Assembly (NCBI GenBank): GCA_031257095.1
Contig: JAIRPI010000011.1
Span: 62,001 to 126,000, forward strand
Source of the DNA: Mycoplasmataceae bacterium
GTDB lineage: Bacteria; Bacillota_I; Bacilli_A; Mycoplasmatales; Mycoplasmoidaceae
DNA length: 64,000 nucleotides
Reading direction: 5' to 3'
The notes beneath the pieces are model-generated. The model worked only from the letters and a program-made list of their open reading frames with translations, did not search any database and was not told where the DNA came from. The position numbers and the translations under genes were made by a program. Within the stretch, counting starts at the first letter, position 1; the number at the start of each line of letters is the position of its first letter. Shown one piece after another: positions 12,830 through 50,661 of this stretch.

Positions 12830-13702
12830 ATGACTAAGAGATGATTATTATCAATTCCAATAATTCCATTAAGCATTTTAATTGGTGTTTGCTTTACTAG
12901 TTGTGCGACTAATCACGACCCAAGCCATCCATTATTTAATTATGAAATGGTTGGTGCTAAACAACAAACTAGCTTAAATGGCAAACAAGGTATAGCGATG
13001 GATGATAATTGTTATTACATCAGTGACAATAACAAATTAATTAAATATGACAAGGATTGAAAACTGATTAAGGAAATTGATAATGTTAAGGATTACTTTA
13101 CAAATGTAAATGATCACCACCATATTGGCGATATTGAAGTGTATAATGGTATCATTTACACCGTTGGTGAGAATTTTGAAAACTCATTGGGGGGGGCAAT
13201 TGAAGTTGGTTTATTTAACACTAACCTCCAATGGATTGCAACAATAAATATTTATCAAGATGATCACGGTTTAAAAGAAGTATCAGGAATTACTATCGAT
13301 AAAACTGATAGTTTAATATGAATTAGTTCTTGATGCGATGGTGACTCTGGTCAATATTTATACGCTTATTCTTATCCTGATTTTAAATTTGTTAAAAAAA
13401 TTAAAACCAATCCATGAGTGCAAAAAATTCAAGGTATTAAATATTACAAAGGATTTATTTTTGCTTCATGTGATGATGATACGAAATGAAGCGGCGACAA
13501 ACAAGATAAAGATCATCTATATCGTATTAACCCAAAAAATGGACATGCCATATTAGAACATACATTAAATGAATTTGCTGATAATAAAGAAACGGAAGGT
13601 TTAACGATTGATTCTCATACTGGTGAGTTTTTAATAATGCAAAATGTTGATAATAAAGGTTTATTAACATATTTTAAAACTTCAAAATATAAAGCGCAAT
13701 AA
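12830..13702 (+). CDS. Predicted lipoprotein with beta-propeller-like ectodomain
   Basis: 290 residues. A hydrophobic signal ends in a lipobox-like FTSC with Cys25, predicting a membrane-anchored surface lipoprotein. The mature part has repeated segments of the type GIAMDD-YYISDN, IEVYNGIIYTVG, VSGITID-SLIWIS, LYRINP and EGLTID-GEFLIM. This pattern resembles a six-bladed propeller or NHL-like fold, inferred from pattern only. An 8-G tract at 13189-13196 lies in frame inside the gene, so any change in tract length would truncate the protein. A TATAAT box ends 8 bases before the ATG. Confidence 0.75.
13189..13196 (+). repeat. 8-G homopolymer inside lipoprotein gene (in frame)
   Basis: Eight consecutive G in the sense strand, about 360 bases after the start. 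The reading frame is open on both sides. This tract length matches the two other G/C tracts at 14918 and 46099. Confidence 0.8.
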
Positions 13703-13757: not shown

Positions 13758-14941
13758 CTACAAAATTAATTCTTCTCAAGCAAAACTTGCATTATATAAA
13801 GCTAGAATTTCGGTATTTGTAGAATTACATCCAGGATTGGTTGAGGTATTTGAGTAAAAGTTATTATTAGTTCATGATGATGAAGCAGATGGTGACTTAT
13901 GGCAAGAGTAGCTAAAAGCAAATTGTTCAGAACTAGTATTTCCACTATCCATGCATGTAGTTATAGAATTATCGTTAACATTAATGGTTACTCAATTATT
14001 CGATACTATATCAATAAATGAAATGGCATGTGCTTTGCACAATATGGCGTTATTAGCGTTATGACATTCACTTTTCAAGACATTATGGTCAAACGTTATA
14101 GTTTGTCCTGTCTTGCCATTATAATTTGATGCAAAAGCTATATTGAAACTTCCATTTAAGGAAATATTAATAATCTTGTTTGAGCTAATATCAACATTGC
14201 CATAAACTGGGTCTTCAAATAAAACGCCGAACGATTGTGAATTTAAAGACAATCGATTACAAATAATTACATTTGATTTGATATTAACATTAGAATCAAC
14301 ATCTAATATATCAGTAAAAAGCAATCCCGTCGAACAGTCTAAAATCTTATTATTTTGAAATGTCACGTTTTGTGAAATTTCTTCTAACACGCAAACACCT
14401 GTTGTATTATCATTACCAATGATGTTAATGTTAGAAATATTTCAATTTATCTCGTTGGTAGGAGTGCTTGGCGAGGTATTTGGACTAGTCATCCCAAAAA
14501 TAATTCCTGCTGTTTTAGAATGTGAGCTTATAAGATTAATTGTTGCATTGTCTGTTCCAATAAGATCGCATGTGTATCCATCCGGACAAAATATTGGTGT
14601 ATTAATTTCTCCTTCAAGTTTAAATTTGTTAATTAAGCCATTTTGTTGGCTTATACTTTCTAAATTAATGCAAACCAAGTCATCGAAAGAAGACGTAGGC
14701 TTTTCAGCACGATAAATTTTCGGAACAGTCATAGTCGTGGTTTTGTCATTGATAACAAAATAATTATCATGATTATCACCACCACCATCATTATTATGCT
14801 TGTGATATCAAATTGCATACCCAATACCAATACCAATTCCGGCAAAAGATAACAACCCTAACGGGACAAACACCCCCAATAATATTTTGTTTTTTCTTAA
14901 GCTATCAGAATGTTTGTGGGGGGGGTTATTTGTCTTTTCAT
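13758..14941 (-). CDS. Phase-variable beta-helix-like surface protein (OFF: 8-C tract)
   Basis: ATG 14941 follows a TATAAT box by 9 bases. After five codons comes an 8-C tract (sense strand; plus-strand G 14918-14925). As sequenced, the frame stops after 14 residues. With one more C it stays open to TAG 13758-13760, giving about 394 residues. That product has a hydrophobic anchor (LLGVFVPLGLLSFAGIGIG), a His/Asn/Gly linker, and an ectodomain of short Asn-rich repeats such as NKILDCSTGL, SNVNIKSNVIICN and VDISSNKIINIS. These resemble right-handed parallel beta-helix rungs. There is no lipobox Cys. The fold is inferred by pattern; the frame offset is direct observation. Confidence 0.75.
14918..14925 (-). 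repeat. 8-base C tract controlling the reading frame of the surface gene
   Basis: Eight G on the plus strand, equal to eight C in the sense strand, starting 16 bases after the A of the ATG. The downstream frame is open only with 9 (or 6, 12) bases here. Confidence 0.85.
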
Positions 14942-45804: not shown

Positions 45805-46020
45805 ATGGCAAAAGAAACTGGTATACAAGTAAAAGGTAAAATAATTGAAGTTATCTCAAATATAAAATTTAAAGTCGCATTAGAAAACAATATGATAATT
45901 AATGCTACCACTGGCGGTAAAGTTAAACAACACCACACGAAATTATTCCGTGGTGACAATGTCGTTGTCGAACTAAGCCCATATGATTTATCACAAGGGC
46001 GAATTATTGAATTAAAATAA
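45805..46020 (+). CDS. infA: Translation initiation factor IF-1
   Basis: 71 residues. S1-like OB fold with VKGKIIEVISNIKFKVALEN and the C-terminal SPYDLSQGRIIEL. Normally followed directly by rpmJ; here 4.15 kb of surface-protein DNA intervenes. Confidence 0.96.
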   Translation: MAKETGIQVKGKIIEVISNIKFKVALENNMIINATTGGKVKQHHTKLFRGDNVVVELSPYDLSQGRIIELK

Positions 46021-46050
46021 TTTTGTTGTATCATTATTAATTAAAAATTT

Positions 46051-46056
46051 TATAAT
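46051..46056 (+). promoter_or_regulatory. -10 box of the phase-variable surface gene
   Basis: TATAAT, 12 bases before ATG 46069, within an AT-alternating stretch. Confidence 0.5.
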
Positions 46057-46068
46057 ATATACATATAT

Positions 46069-47525
46069 ATGAATAAAATAAAAACAAAATCCCACTCAGG
46101 GGGGGGTTAAATAAAAACCACAAAAAGAAAGTTTTATTACTATCTTTATTAATTCCTATTGGATTACTTGCCGTTGCTGGTGCTACTGTTGGCGGATTAT
46201 ATGGAGCGGGTGTTATTGCCCCCAAAGCATCACCAACCAATATTGCTAGTATATTTACCGATGGTACTAGTGTATATCAATGATCAAATTCGGCAACAAC
46301 TAAAGACCAAACTAGTACTGAAGACCCATCTAAAGAAGGCTCAGCGGCAAAACCATGAAGCCTGGTTGACTCGCCGTCGACAGACGCCATAATAGATAAT
46401 CTTAATAGTTTTCTCACACGTAGTAATCAACAATCTAAAAATACTGTTTTCAACGATTTAACGTTTACTGCATGAGCACAAGATGGTTCTACTAATTTTT
46501 ATAAATGTACTGCATCAGCAAACACAGCAAGTTATGATGGTTCTTTTCAAATTGGTTTGTATTGAAACCAAACGCATGAACTTAGCGGTGCAGTCACAAG
46601 TCGCATTGTTGATTATTCTAGTATCACCACTACTAAAACTGCCGGTGACGTTTTAGCTTCATTGTCTACACAAAATTCTAGCTTCCATCCAGATGCTGTT
46701 GAGATAGGTTATACTAGCCAAAGCACTTTTTATTCTTATACTCTTTCAACACAAATGACACAAACCAATCTGACTAACTTATGAAAAGATATTGGCAATT
46801 CTAACGGTTATGGTTATGAACTAACTCTACAAGCTAAGACTGGTGGTTGATATAGTGGAAGCACAAATATAAATATTTATGTTAAATTAAAACGTATTAG
46901 TTTTAATCCTAATTTATTTGGTAATGATCGCTCATTAAATGATAATGGTGGTGCTAATCCTTTTATCACTATTCCTAATTTAGAACAAGCAACCCGCGCT
47001 TGAATTACTCGTTATAATTCTACCGCCTTTAATGATGGAACAGCCGCGTGGGCTAATTTTTATACAAGCAACACAAGCAACTGTAATTTAGAAATAGATA
47101 CTGGAAAATTGAAACTTCAATATGGTGATGCTAATCAATTTTATACAAGCGATAGCGGAACGGCAACTTTCTTTACTTTTAATGTTCAACAAAAAGAAAG
47201 TTTAGTTGATGTATTTGAAAATAATGATCATACAACAAGCATTCCTACCGATACCGCTACCAATAATCTTATTTATATTAATAAACCATTGGCTACTCAT
47301 GAATGTTGAGTTGACACCATTATTTTGCTAAAAGAACAATATTCTGATGGAACTTATTCAGACTTTCGTGGTGCCGACTTTACATCAATGTATATTTACA
47401 GTGTATCATTTAGTAATGGTACAACCGGTTTTAATGGGACATTAACAGTTAGTCCCTTAACCGGTTCATTGTTTTATGAAGACACAGTTACACTTTATTG
47501 AAAAACTTATAACTACACTGCATAA
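46069..47525 (+). CDS. Phase-variable surface protein (OFF: 8-G tract)
   Basis: ATG 46069 is followed after 10 codons by eight G (46099-46106), and the frame then ends at TAA 46108 after 13 residues. Read one base earlier, from 46107, the frame is open for 472 codons to TAA 47523-47525, with many TGA-Trp codons. A 9-G tract would join the two into a ~486-residue protein. The product has a hydrophobic N-terminal anchor (LLLSLLIPIGLLAVAGATVG) and a Ser/Thr/Asn-rich ectodomain with repeated Trp-Tyr-Asn motifs, and no lipobox Cys. A close match in layout to the gene at 13758-14941. Adhesion or antigenic role inferred only. Confidence 0.78.
46099..46106 (+). repeat. 8-G tract controlling the surface-gene frame
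   Basis: Eight G beginning 30 bases after the A of ATG 46069. The downstream frame needs 9 (or 6, 12) bases. Confidence 0.85.
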
Positions 47526-47534
47526 ACACAAAAA

Positions 47535-49424
47535 ATGAAAAAGATATCAAAGTGAATTTTTTCATTATTATTAATCCCAACCTCACTTTTTTGCGGTGTA
47601 ATAGGAATTAGGAGTATTTCTAATTCAACAACCACTATCCAACAAACAACAACTAAAAAATCATCTTTTGTAGCTATAGATATAAATACGATTATTGAAC
47701 ATCCTAATATGGGGACACTAAAGCAACTACCCACTCGCAATAATATATTGCAATATATCTATAATGATGTTGCTGCTACTTACAAAGATGTTGTCAATGA
47801 TTTGGATGTAGGTTCAATCGGCCAAACATCAACAATTGTAAGTACCAATTCTGATAGTGCTAGTTACACTGGCAGCGTAACAATAACTTACACAATAAGC
47901 AACACTAAAACTGATTTATCACAGATAATTTCACCCAATTCAACGATTCCAAGTAGAATTAGTTATGATTTTTGATCACAATCAGAAGATGTAGCTAAAT
48001 ATGGTTTAATTGACCAATTAACTCAACAGTACCCTACGTTAAATGGTAATCAAATAAAGGTTACTGCGATTGATTATGGTTCTGACAACGCACTAAGACA
48101 ATTTAAAGGAACGGCAACGATTGTTGCCAAAGACTCTTCTTCACTTTATACTGGATCAACCAACTTTTCTTTTAATATGAAGGTTAATTTAAATGCTATT
48201 TTCTCTGATCTCACTAATTTACAGTATTCTCCATATGACACATTAGATGCAGAAAAAGCCACTCATTTATTAGATGGAGTTATAGGAAAAAATAAAAGCA
48301 GAATAAATGACACATTAACCTTTGAAACTTATGTAACTTCATCCATAACCACTGGCTCAAATACAGTAACATTTCAACCCAACGCTACTGGCACTAATAA
48401 CTATTTGTTAACCAACCAAGTTTCCGGGACTTTTACACCATTTCACCCAACACCATCAGAAGTATTTAAGTATATAGACGATGGGAATGGTGGTTATGTC
48501 ATTGATGGTTTTGTCGATGCTAATGCAAACCTAAGTGCTTATGACACATTGTGAATTCCTGACAATTATCAAAATAAAACGGTAACAAAAATAAACCAGC
48601 AAGCATTTCAACGAGGAAGTGCAGATACAGGAACATCAAAGACTGGAGCAGCATATGATTGTTTAGCTCCTGGAGGCAATTTAAAATATTTACGTTTACC
48701 AAATGGAATTACCACAATTGAAGGTAATGCTTTTATGCACAATAGATCGTTTGCTGGATCTACATTGTTTTTGCCTGACTCATGGAGCGGTTCATATGTT
48801 TCGCAAGGTTTGCGGGGTCCATTTTATGACACTGGTTTTTCACGAATAGTGTTAGGAGCGGCATATAACTTTCAATCCCCTAGCGATAGCAATCATTATC
48901 GTTCATCATGATATGGATCAGCTGTTTCATACGGTACTATTTTAGATGTTTCTCCAAATAATCATTCATACGATGTGGTACGAAAATATGATAGTCAAGG
49001 AGTATTAACTGGTATGCAATGAGTTCCAACCACTAAATATACATCAACAACAATCCTTGGCAATGCTGGTTGAGGGACAGTTGATTTAGCAGATATGTTG
49101 CCTAATACTGTGAACACTTTGCCACAACACTTCTTTTCTTATTATTCAGGCAATAGTAGTACAATTATTAGGATACCGTCTTACATTAGATCATTAGCAA
49201 CCAATAGCTTTTATTCCTGCGCACAAAACGTAGCATTGACAATCAAGATAGAATATGAATATGATGGCGCCGGCATGTCAAATTTGGAAATGATAAATGG
49301 CGATTTCACCCCGCCGCGAGATCAAAATCGAATTTTTTTGGTACCAAATAACCTATTGAGTTGGTACAACACTCAATATTTGCAATATACAAGTGCTAGA
49401 AATTGAACGTTTCAAGGATATTAA
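47535..49424 (+). CDS. BspA-like leucine-rich-repeat surface protein
   Basis: 629 residues with an N-terminal hydrophobic export segment (residues about 6-26). There are Thr/Ser/Asn-rich beta-type modules up to about 320. A region with BspA/TpLRR-type repeats follows: LWIPDNYQNKTVTKINQQAF, LKYLRLPNGITTIEGNAFMH, TLPQHFFSY and IIRIPSYIRSLATNSFYS. Such repeats occur in surface adhesins of host-associated microbes. It begins 9 bases after the phase-variable gene with no clear promoter, so its expression may be coupled to it. Confidence 0.75.
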
Positions 49425-49563
49425 TTCTTTAAAAATAATATTTACTGAGATACTTCAACAAAATTTATTAACTATCTTATTTATCTTTAGTTATTAATGT
49501 AATAATATCATTCATAAATAGTTTGTAATTTTCATTTTTATCTAAACACAAAAATTCAAATAT

Positions 49564-49830
49564 TTATTCGACAAGTTTATTCTTTTTCACTATATTATCC
49601 AATCTCGCATCAATTTTTACTAAATGGGCATCAATTCTATCTAACCGCACATCGTTTTCTGATAAACGAGTCTCAATTCTATCAAGCCTAGCGTTATTAC
49701 GTTTTTCAAATTCTTGGAATCAAATTGGTGGTTTATTCACGATCCTATTAATTATAGCACATTCAAAAGTAGCACCTATTAGTCTTGAATAACTAGATTT
49801 TGTTATTTTATATTCTTTATTATTTTTCAT
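49564..49830 (-). CDS. Small coiled-coil paralog, copy F (88 aa)
   Basis: Conserved head (MKNNKEYKITKSSYSRLIGA; NKPPIWFQEFEKRNNAR), then five regular heptads of the type x-x-R-L-x-x-I (RLDRIET, RLSENDV, RLDRIDA, HLVKIDA, RLDNIVK). This tail matches copy A. It lies inside the island that splits the ribosomal operon, on the opposite strand. Confidence 0.75.
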
Positions 49831-49921
49831 TTTCTTTTCTTACTCCTACACATATATTTACAAGAATTTCACCCATTTTTCTCAAATTATTTTTAAAATT
49901 TCTAAATTTTCCGAGCGTAAA
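49831..49921 (-). repeat. Conserved upstream box of the coiled-coil family (copy F)
   Basis: Same box as upstream of the other copies (TTTACGCTCGG ... GTGAAATTCTTGTAAATATA ... TAGGAGTAAG). Similarity to copy C continues to about 49965. Confidence 0.6.
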
Positions 49922-50130
49922 TAGATAAATAATACTTTTAAATCACCGCATATAAAATTGAGCGGATATAGTAGCTAAAATATGTAAGATGCATAGTCTA
50001 ACCACTTGAACAACCATCAACATAATTAGCATCTACCCGATCAACTAATTAATTACTATGCACAAAACCGTAAGATAACTAATTCATCATCTACTTCCTG
50101 TTGCGCTTATTACCGATTATTAAAATAATC
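49922..50130. other. Gene-poor interval with possible coding debris
   Basis: Between the repeat box and the rpmJ promoter no complete gene is visible. The minus strand has two short coding-like pieces: about 49998-50050 reads LVDRVDANYVDGCSSG, and about 50060-50107 reads AQQEVDDELVILRFCA. They look like degraded surface-gene remnants. No tRNA-like fold noticed. Confidence 0.25.
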
Positions 50131-50158
50131 TTGACTTTTATCATACATTTAATATAAT
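50131..50158 (+). promoter_or_regulatory. Promoter of rpmJ-rpsM-rpsK-rpoA-rplQ
   Basis: TTGACT (50131-50136) and TATAAT (50153-50158) with a 16-base spacer, 12 bases before the rpmJ ATG. It is among the best -35/-10 pairs in the window, as expected if this half of the operon needs its own promoter after the island separated it from infA. Confidence 0.7.
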
Positions 50159-50170
50159 TTACAAACTATA

Positions 50171-50284
50171 ATGAAAGTTCGTGCATCAGTAAAGCCGATA
50201 TGTAAAGATTGTAAAATGATAAAACGTCATGGTGTTTTACGTGTTATTTGTAAAAACCCAAAACACAAACAAAGACAAGGATAA
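50171..50284 (+). CDS. rpmJ: 50S ribosomal protein L36
   Basis: 37 residues, [14 protein letters not shown] start, zinc ligands Cys11, Cys14, Cys27 and His32. Two bases before rpsM. Confidence 0.96.
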
Positions 50285-50286
50285 AT

Positions 50287-50661
50287 ATGGCGCGTTTATT
50301 AGGTGTAGATATTCCCAATAAGAAAAAAATTCCATATGCTTTAACAGCAATCTTTGGCATTGGTATTTCTAGTGGAAGAAAAATTTGTAAGATAGCAAAA
50401 GTTGATGTTGAAAAAAGAACTGAAGATTTATCGGAAAGTGAATTTGCTGCTATTCGTGATGCGGCAAGTAAATTTCAAATTGAAGGAGATTTACGTCGTG
50501 AACAACACAACAATATCAAACGTTTAATGGACATTAGCTGTTATCGTGGTATTCGTCACCGTAAGAAATTACCTGTTCGTGGTCAACGCACAAAAACAAA
50601 CGCCCGAACACGTAAAGGTCCGCGTAAGACAATTGCAAACAAGAAGGTAGAAACTAAGTAA
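50287..50661 (+). CDS. rpsM: 30S ribosomal protein S13
   Basis: 124 residues. [21 protein letters not shown] and [20 protein letters not shown] are diagnostic. Confidence 0.97.

Follow-up and report, generated by a model that had tools for sequence, protein, structure and literature searches.

A G8 tract early in a predicted surface-protein gene of an uncultured Mycoplasmataceae genome: very probably one switch of an on/off surface repertoire

Poly-G tracts are known to set the reading frame of mycoplasma surface genes. The M. bovis P68 gene carries 8-10 G, and nine G give the full protein; the P48-like gene of M. agalactiae has a poly-G frame switch, and in the spma genes the poly-G lies in the 5' untranslated region (PMC2824730). 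The first two genes bear out the statement of the first-pass annotation of this DNA that slipped-strand variation of G tracts is established in mycoplasma surface genes. Another mycoplasma poly-G case, gsmA, is cited in PMC9187656. In metagenome reads of Ca. M. girerdii, repeat-length variants were found in BspA-like genes, several of which are OFF in the majority of reads; the organism also has a type III mod gene controlled by a G(8) tract (PMC5476646). In S. gallolyticus, the phase-variable attenuator of Pil1 was demonstrated by experiment (PMC3894217). As the mycoplasma examples show poly-G frame switching of surface genes to be an established mechanism, the gene described herein is read as a further case of a known switch.

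The gene lies at positions 46069-47525 of the window, which is the whole stretch of 64,000 nucleotides analyzed (C5:62001-126000). The window belongs to a MAG of 665 kb in 27 contigs that is 83% complete (G000), and its genes are read correctly only with TGA as Trp. Promoter and terminator calls throughout are pattern-based and are themselves no proof of function. The features of the gene are as follows.

46051..46056, + strand: TATAAT, -10-like hexamer 12 nt 5' of the ATG, read directly
46069..46110, + strand: assembled start ORF of 13 residues from the ATG to its stop, MNKIKTKSHSGGG, read directly
46099..46106, + strand: G8 tract, candidate frame-setting switch, read directly and from run counts
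46107..47525, + strand: predicted surface-protein main frame of 472 codons and a stop, in a different register from the ATG; sister species have homologs over the full length
46131..46181, + strand: N-terminal hydrophobic segment, predicted signal anchor without lipobox, from N-terminus scoring

The G8 tract begins 30 nt, or 10 codons, after the ATG at 46069-46071, which is the position expected of a homopolymeric coding-frame switch. The frame from this ATG ends at the TAA at 46108-46110, and the frame that follows the tract remains open for 472 codons from 46107 to the stop at 47523-47525. The ATG and the main frame are one base out of register; this had been claimed from the letters alone, and its coordinates and arithmetic were confirmed. 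A tract length divisible by three gives 485 residues, and 7 or 8 G give 14 or 13 residues, with no further lesion in the frame. The earlier claim that one added G restores an anchored protein of ~486 residues thus stands for the length within one residue; the anchoring amounts to a single hydrophobic segment, as the in-frame reading has no lipobox in its first 50 residues. No alternative start lies upstream of the tract, where the main frame hits a TAA at 46074 with no ATG, GTG, or TTG between, and the first candidate start 3' of the tract is the TTG at 46557, 150 codons into the main frame. The window gene is OFF in the assembled genome. The G8 run is its sole lesion, because no stop interrupts the 472-codon frame, which can be aligned over its full length with intact homologs of 38-41% identity.

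A promoter had also been described as present. The TATAAT at 46051-46056 is there and would imply a nearly leaderless transcript; the promoter scan scored none for this gene, no -35 partner above chance was found for the hexamer, and the region holds 25 promoter-like sites versus 24.5 in shuffles. With regard to surface exposure, the protein has the single N-terminal hydrophobic segment and no Pfam, NCBIfam, or PDB relative. Matches to SurE and MGDG_synth (E 0.01-0.03, one family member each) were taken as chance. AlphaFold2 on the single protein sequence gave a pLDDT of 32 and no usable model.

These features suggest the following mechanism. The poly-G at codons 11-13 would determine in which frame a protein of ~485 residues, secreted or signal-anchored, is read, and slipped-strand mispairing in replication would alter the tract by single Gs. 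A length that is not a multiple of three would lead to a stop within 14 codons and no surface protein, and the assembled G8 would represent this OFF state. The TATAAT at 46051-46056 presumably drives the gene, the tract would vary in the living population, and the protein would be displayed on the surface.

In layout, the gene resembles M. bovis P68 and the M. agalactiae P48-like gene: a mollicute surface protein, here a predicted one, with a 5' coding poly-G (8-10 in those genes), of which one phase gives the full protein with signal peptide. The likeness drawn here is one of layout. P68 and P48-like are lipoproteins, whereas the window protein has a putative signal anchor, and membership in their family was rejected on the missing lipobox. 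Length variation between strains is documented for P68 and P48-like, whereas the window tract is known here from one assembly. The case of Ca. M. girerdii is similar in that an uncultured mollicute has surface genes OFF in the majority allele and a G(8) tract. However, dinucleotide repeats act in its BspA genes with variation shown at read level, whereas poly-G/C dominate here and were read from the assembly.

The tract is one of many. G8/C8 runs occur three times in the window versus 0.02 expected from dinucleotide shuffles, and the two others are listed below.

14918-14925, - strand: C8 tract of a second N-terminal tract gene, frame on to 13758; out of frame, in-frame reading 394 aa, MKRQITPPHKHSDSLRKNKILLGVFVPLG...
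13189-13196: G8 run deep in a 290-aa lipoprotein-like gene; in frame, internal control

Genome-wide, there are 24 G/C runs of at least 7 versus 4.6 expected, and 19 of at least 8 versus 0.8 expected, an excess of ~20-fold (first-order Markov estimates from the window). The surroundings of all 24 runs were read, with "early" defined as no farther than ~300 nt into a reading frame and with the ATG nearest a TATAAT-like box taken as the start. Eighteen runs lie early in reading frames of secreted or membrane-type proteins, 10 out of frame and 8 in frame. A membrane-type hydrophobic segment was found in the first ~50 residues of all early-tract genes scored (17/17), with a lipobox in some.

Early tracts out of frame (10): window gene; C5:76918 (= window 14918-14925); C5:131089; contigs C11, C21, and C22; contig C17 (G7); contig C4 (two, C7); contig C3 (G9)
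Early tracts in frame (8): contig C6 (C8, G10); contig C8 (G8); contig C14 (G8, C8, and G8 at C14:9300); contig C17 (G8); contig C4 (C8)

At C5:131089, an upstream ATG would be in frame, and the ATG after the TATAAT-like box was used. One of the 24 runs, at C14:25212, was left out of both classes because its frame is broken elsewhere too. A lipoprotein-like gene on contig C14 (L076:4613-5770) has a frame seemingly broken at more than one place, its G8 run being just one of them.

The five deep-internal runs are all in frame, one of them in an infB-like gene, versus 10 of the 18 early runs out of frame (Fisher p=0.046, a small contrast with only five internal runs). The proportion 10/18 fits random phase, for which 2/3 is expected (binomial p 0.32). 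Across loci, the early tracts have several lengths and phases (7-10). Three related genes share the leader M.TSQTK...; the G8 on contig C8 and the G8 on contig C17 are in frame, and the G7 on contig C17 is out of frame. Position, gene class, and phase mixture of the tracts point the same way as switching, with small numbers limiting the test, and the pattern fits poly-G/C slipped-strand phase variation, a known mechanism. We consider it highly likely that the window gene is phase-variable, a contingency gene for a surface protein and one of ~18 early G/C-tract genes in this genome, and its tract is very probably one of the switches in an on/off surface repertoire that spans the genome. With ~18 such genes, cells would differ combinatorially in their set of surface proteins.

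These counts also bear on the other readings of the locus. The first is a decaying gene, that is, a young pseudogene whose frame broke once in a chance G run. The species is represented by one genome, the relatives lack the tract, and the intact neighboring gene of the pair may be enough. A chance run, however, does not account well for a ~20-fold excess of long runs concentrated at surface-gene starts, about half of the tracts are in frame, as switching predicts, and no second lesion is found over 472 codons; decay is improbable. A homopolymer error in sequencing or assembly, with the true tract in frame and the gene simply expressed, has a slightly smaller probability. The genome is a MAG of many contigs, some technologies tend to make errors in G homopolymers, and trouble of Illumina on G tracts has been published (PMC9187656). 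Such errors would not be expected to spare all the deep-internal runs while affecting more than half of the early ones, and an error would still leave a hypermutable tract in place. Transcriptional slippage or -1 ribosomal frameshifting at the G run could also allow expression with no switch in the genome. Such expression is very improbable: a G8 run with a stop directly behind it could slip, leakage at a low level is plausible, and frameshifting was also weighed for the M. agalactiae P48-like gene (PMC2824730), but the RNA at 46069-46200 folds no better than shuffles (z 0.24), which gives no stimulatory structure, and the tracts of other loci vary in length and phase with no single conserved slip site. 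A programmed frameshift gene was rejected on the same folding result and on homologs without a slip site.

Several concordant results favor a reversible switch over a dead gene, and the switching of this locus, offered as an inference in the first-pass annotation, has gained from each of them: the genome-wide tract pattern, the G8/G8/G7 paralogs, the single lesion, the (GA)n-led homologs described below, and the mycoplasma precedents.

G8 runs also occur in other genomes of the family. In six genomes of genus g21 (G114, G125, G131, G134, G158, and G165), dozens of G8 runs were seen soon after an ATG, partly as arrays of similar starts; the position after the ATG is not specific in these genomes, because a reversed-pattern control was similarly high.

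The window protein has a paralog on contig C3 of the same genome and homologs in sister species, at ~40% identity in G024, 38% in G020, 32% in G023, and 36% over part in G015. The congener sample codes are presumably those of a termite-gut MAG series, and "gut" is taken as a lead. The setting of the gene is given below.

45805..46020, + strand: infA, upstream edge of an insertion in the ribosomal-protein operon
47535..49424, + strand: intact, tract-free second member of the surface gene pair, encoding 629 aa; BspA-type LRR hit too weak for the Pfam cut-off
49564..49830, - strand: 88-aa coiled-coil ORF present in ~40 copies across the 665-kb genome, in many cases next to surface genes; Pfam gave no accepted match
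50131..50158, + strand: predicted promoter-like TTGACT-16-TATAAT 5' of rpmJ, marking the insertion's downstream edge
50171..50661, + strand: rpmJ (50171-50284) and rpsM (50287-50661), adjoining infA in most of the congeners that keep both near each other

A second surface gene follows the homolog in G024, G020, and G015, as it does in the window, judged by gene order and N-terminal resemblance, so the two look like a conserved pair. A relative of the second gene, on contig C6 with an in-frame G10, has a strong BspA-type LRR match (1e-17). In the window, the pair is inserted between infA and rpmJ-rpsM (46021-50170). Among congeners with both on the stretch examined, infA and rpmJ-rpsM are close together except in G023, where a different lipoprotein gene is inserted at the same spot.

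The three closest homologs (G020, G024, and G023) have no G tract in the N-terminus; the G8 switch of the window gene is known only from this genome for this reason. Each of the three is instead preceded by a leader ORF with (GA)n, a stem, and an intrinsic-type terminator (stretches L036, L035, and L037). The (GA)n copy number is 17 in G020, 9 in G024, and 11 in G023, and the end of the repeat lies 91-119 nt from the ATG of the homolog. In each leader, exactly one of the three repeat phases runs into or past the terminator, the position of which was set by eye; this phase is the observed one in G020 and a neighboring one in G024 and G023. The (GA)n leaders thus appear, from their frames, to have a switch-like logic in the layout of the Pil1 attenuator, where a terminator follows a separate leader ORF. 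This makes a phase-variable window gene more credible, because its family is linked to repeat-controlled frames in four species and by two repeat types.

The leaders of the sister species are like those of S. gallolyticus Pil1/Pil3 in that a repeat lies in a leader ORF of which at least one phase translates into an intrinsic terminator (PMC3894217). They differ in that the repeat is poly-G or (GA)n and not GCAGA, the ATG mostly stands right after the TATAAT, and up to ~35 copies are present per genome. The window gene itself was rejected as a Pil1-type attenuator: its tract is inside the gene, and no terminator-like site was found on the + strand between the TATAAT and the gene. It was also not classed as one because the poly-G leader element R1 was not found in G000 by covariance model (E 0.001).

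This element was found elsewhere in the genus. In G027, G023, and G024, the leader consists of TATAAT, ~6 nt, ATGCAA..., G8 or more, and then a conserved stem and terminator, with the ATG of the surface gene 108-122 nt after the leader tract in most cases. Examples from these genomes are given below.

L108:2643-2808: leader cassette with poly-G mini-ORF
L116:2779-2951: leader cassette with poly-G mini-ORF
L123:2352-2498: leader cassette with poly-G mini-ORF

An alignment of 25 leaders has 18 pairs, 13 of which have at least one double compensatory change, and no Rfam match was found for the element. The covariance model found 21, 14, and 35 copies in G027, G023, and G024, a few in G020, G005, and G033, and none in 59 genomes of the other genera of the family (E 1e-4). 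Each of the 35 distinct leaders has one frame, and only one, that extends to the terminator, and 10 of the 35 are in this phase, near one third. In shuffles, 48% per leader show a single terminator-reaching frame, and the 35 leaders are far from 35 independent cases because they form only three clusters at 70% identity. From this frame pattern, the mollicute leaders may act as phase-variable attenuators of the Pil1 type.

Taken together, a slight balance of probability favors one surface-gene family being kept phase-variable across an uncultured mollicute genus while its switch changes both repeat type and level: coding-frame poly-G in the window gene, and terminator-gating leaders with (GA)n or poly-G in sister species, the poly-G form being amplified genome-wide into as many as ~35 copies 5' of surface genes. 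For an uncultured lineage with few descriptions of such repertoires, the window gene adds a clear new example of a switch already known. If the wider result holds, the randomization of a surface repertoire via tract lengths can be tested from metagenomes alone. Similarly, it can be tested whether the layer of the switch, translation frame or transcription attenuation, is exchangeable between species with the gene staying phase-variable. The Pil1-type attenuator, which we found described only for streptococcal pili, could then be a genome-wide regulatory cassette.

Two further observations concern the leaders. Divergent C...CATG...G pairs were considered as an inverted repeat or mobile element, which was rejected when the downstream genes showed leaders with terminators. 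In many G027 leaders, a poly-C tract lies just 5' of the TATAAT (L108:2643-2651, L112:2419-2426, and similar). This tract may vary in length as a second such site within the promoter spacer, or it may belong to a divergent leader.
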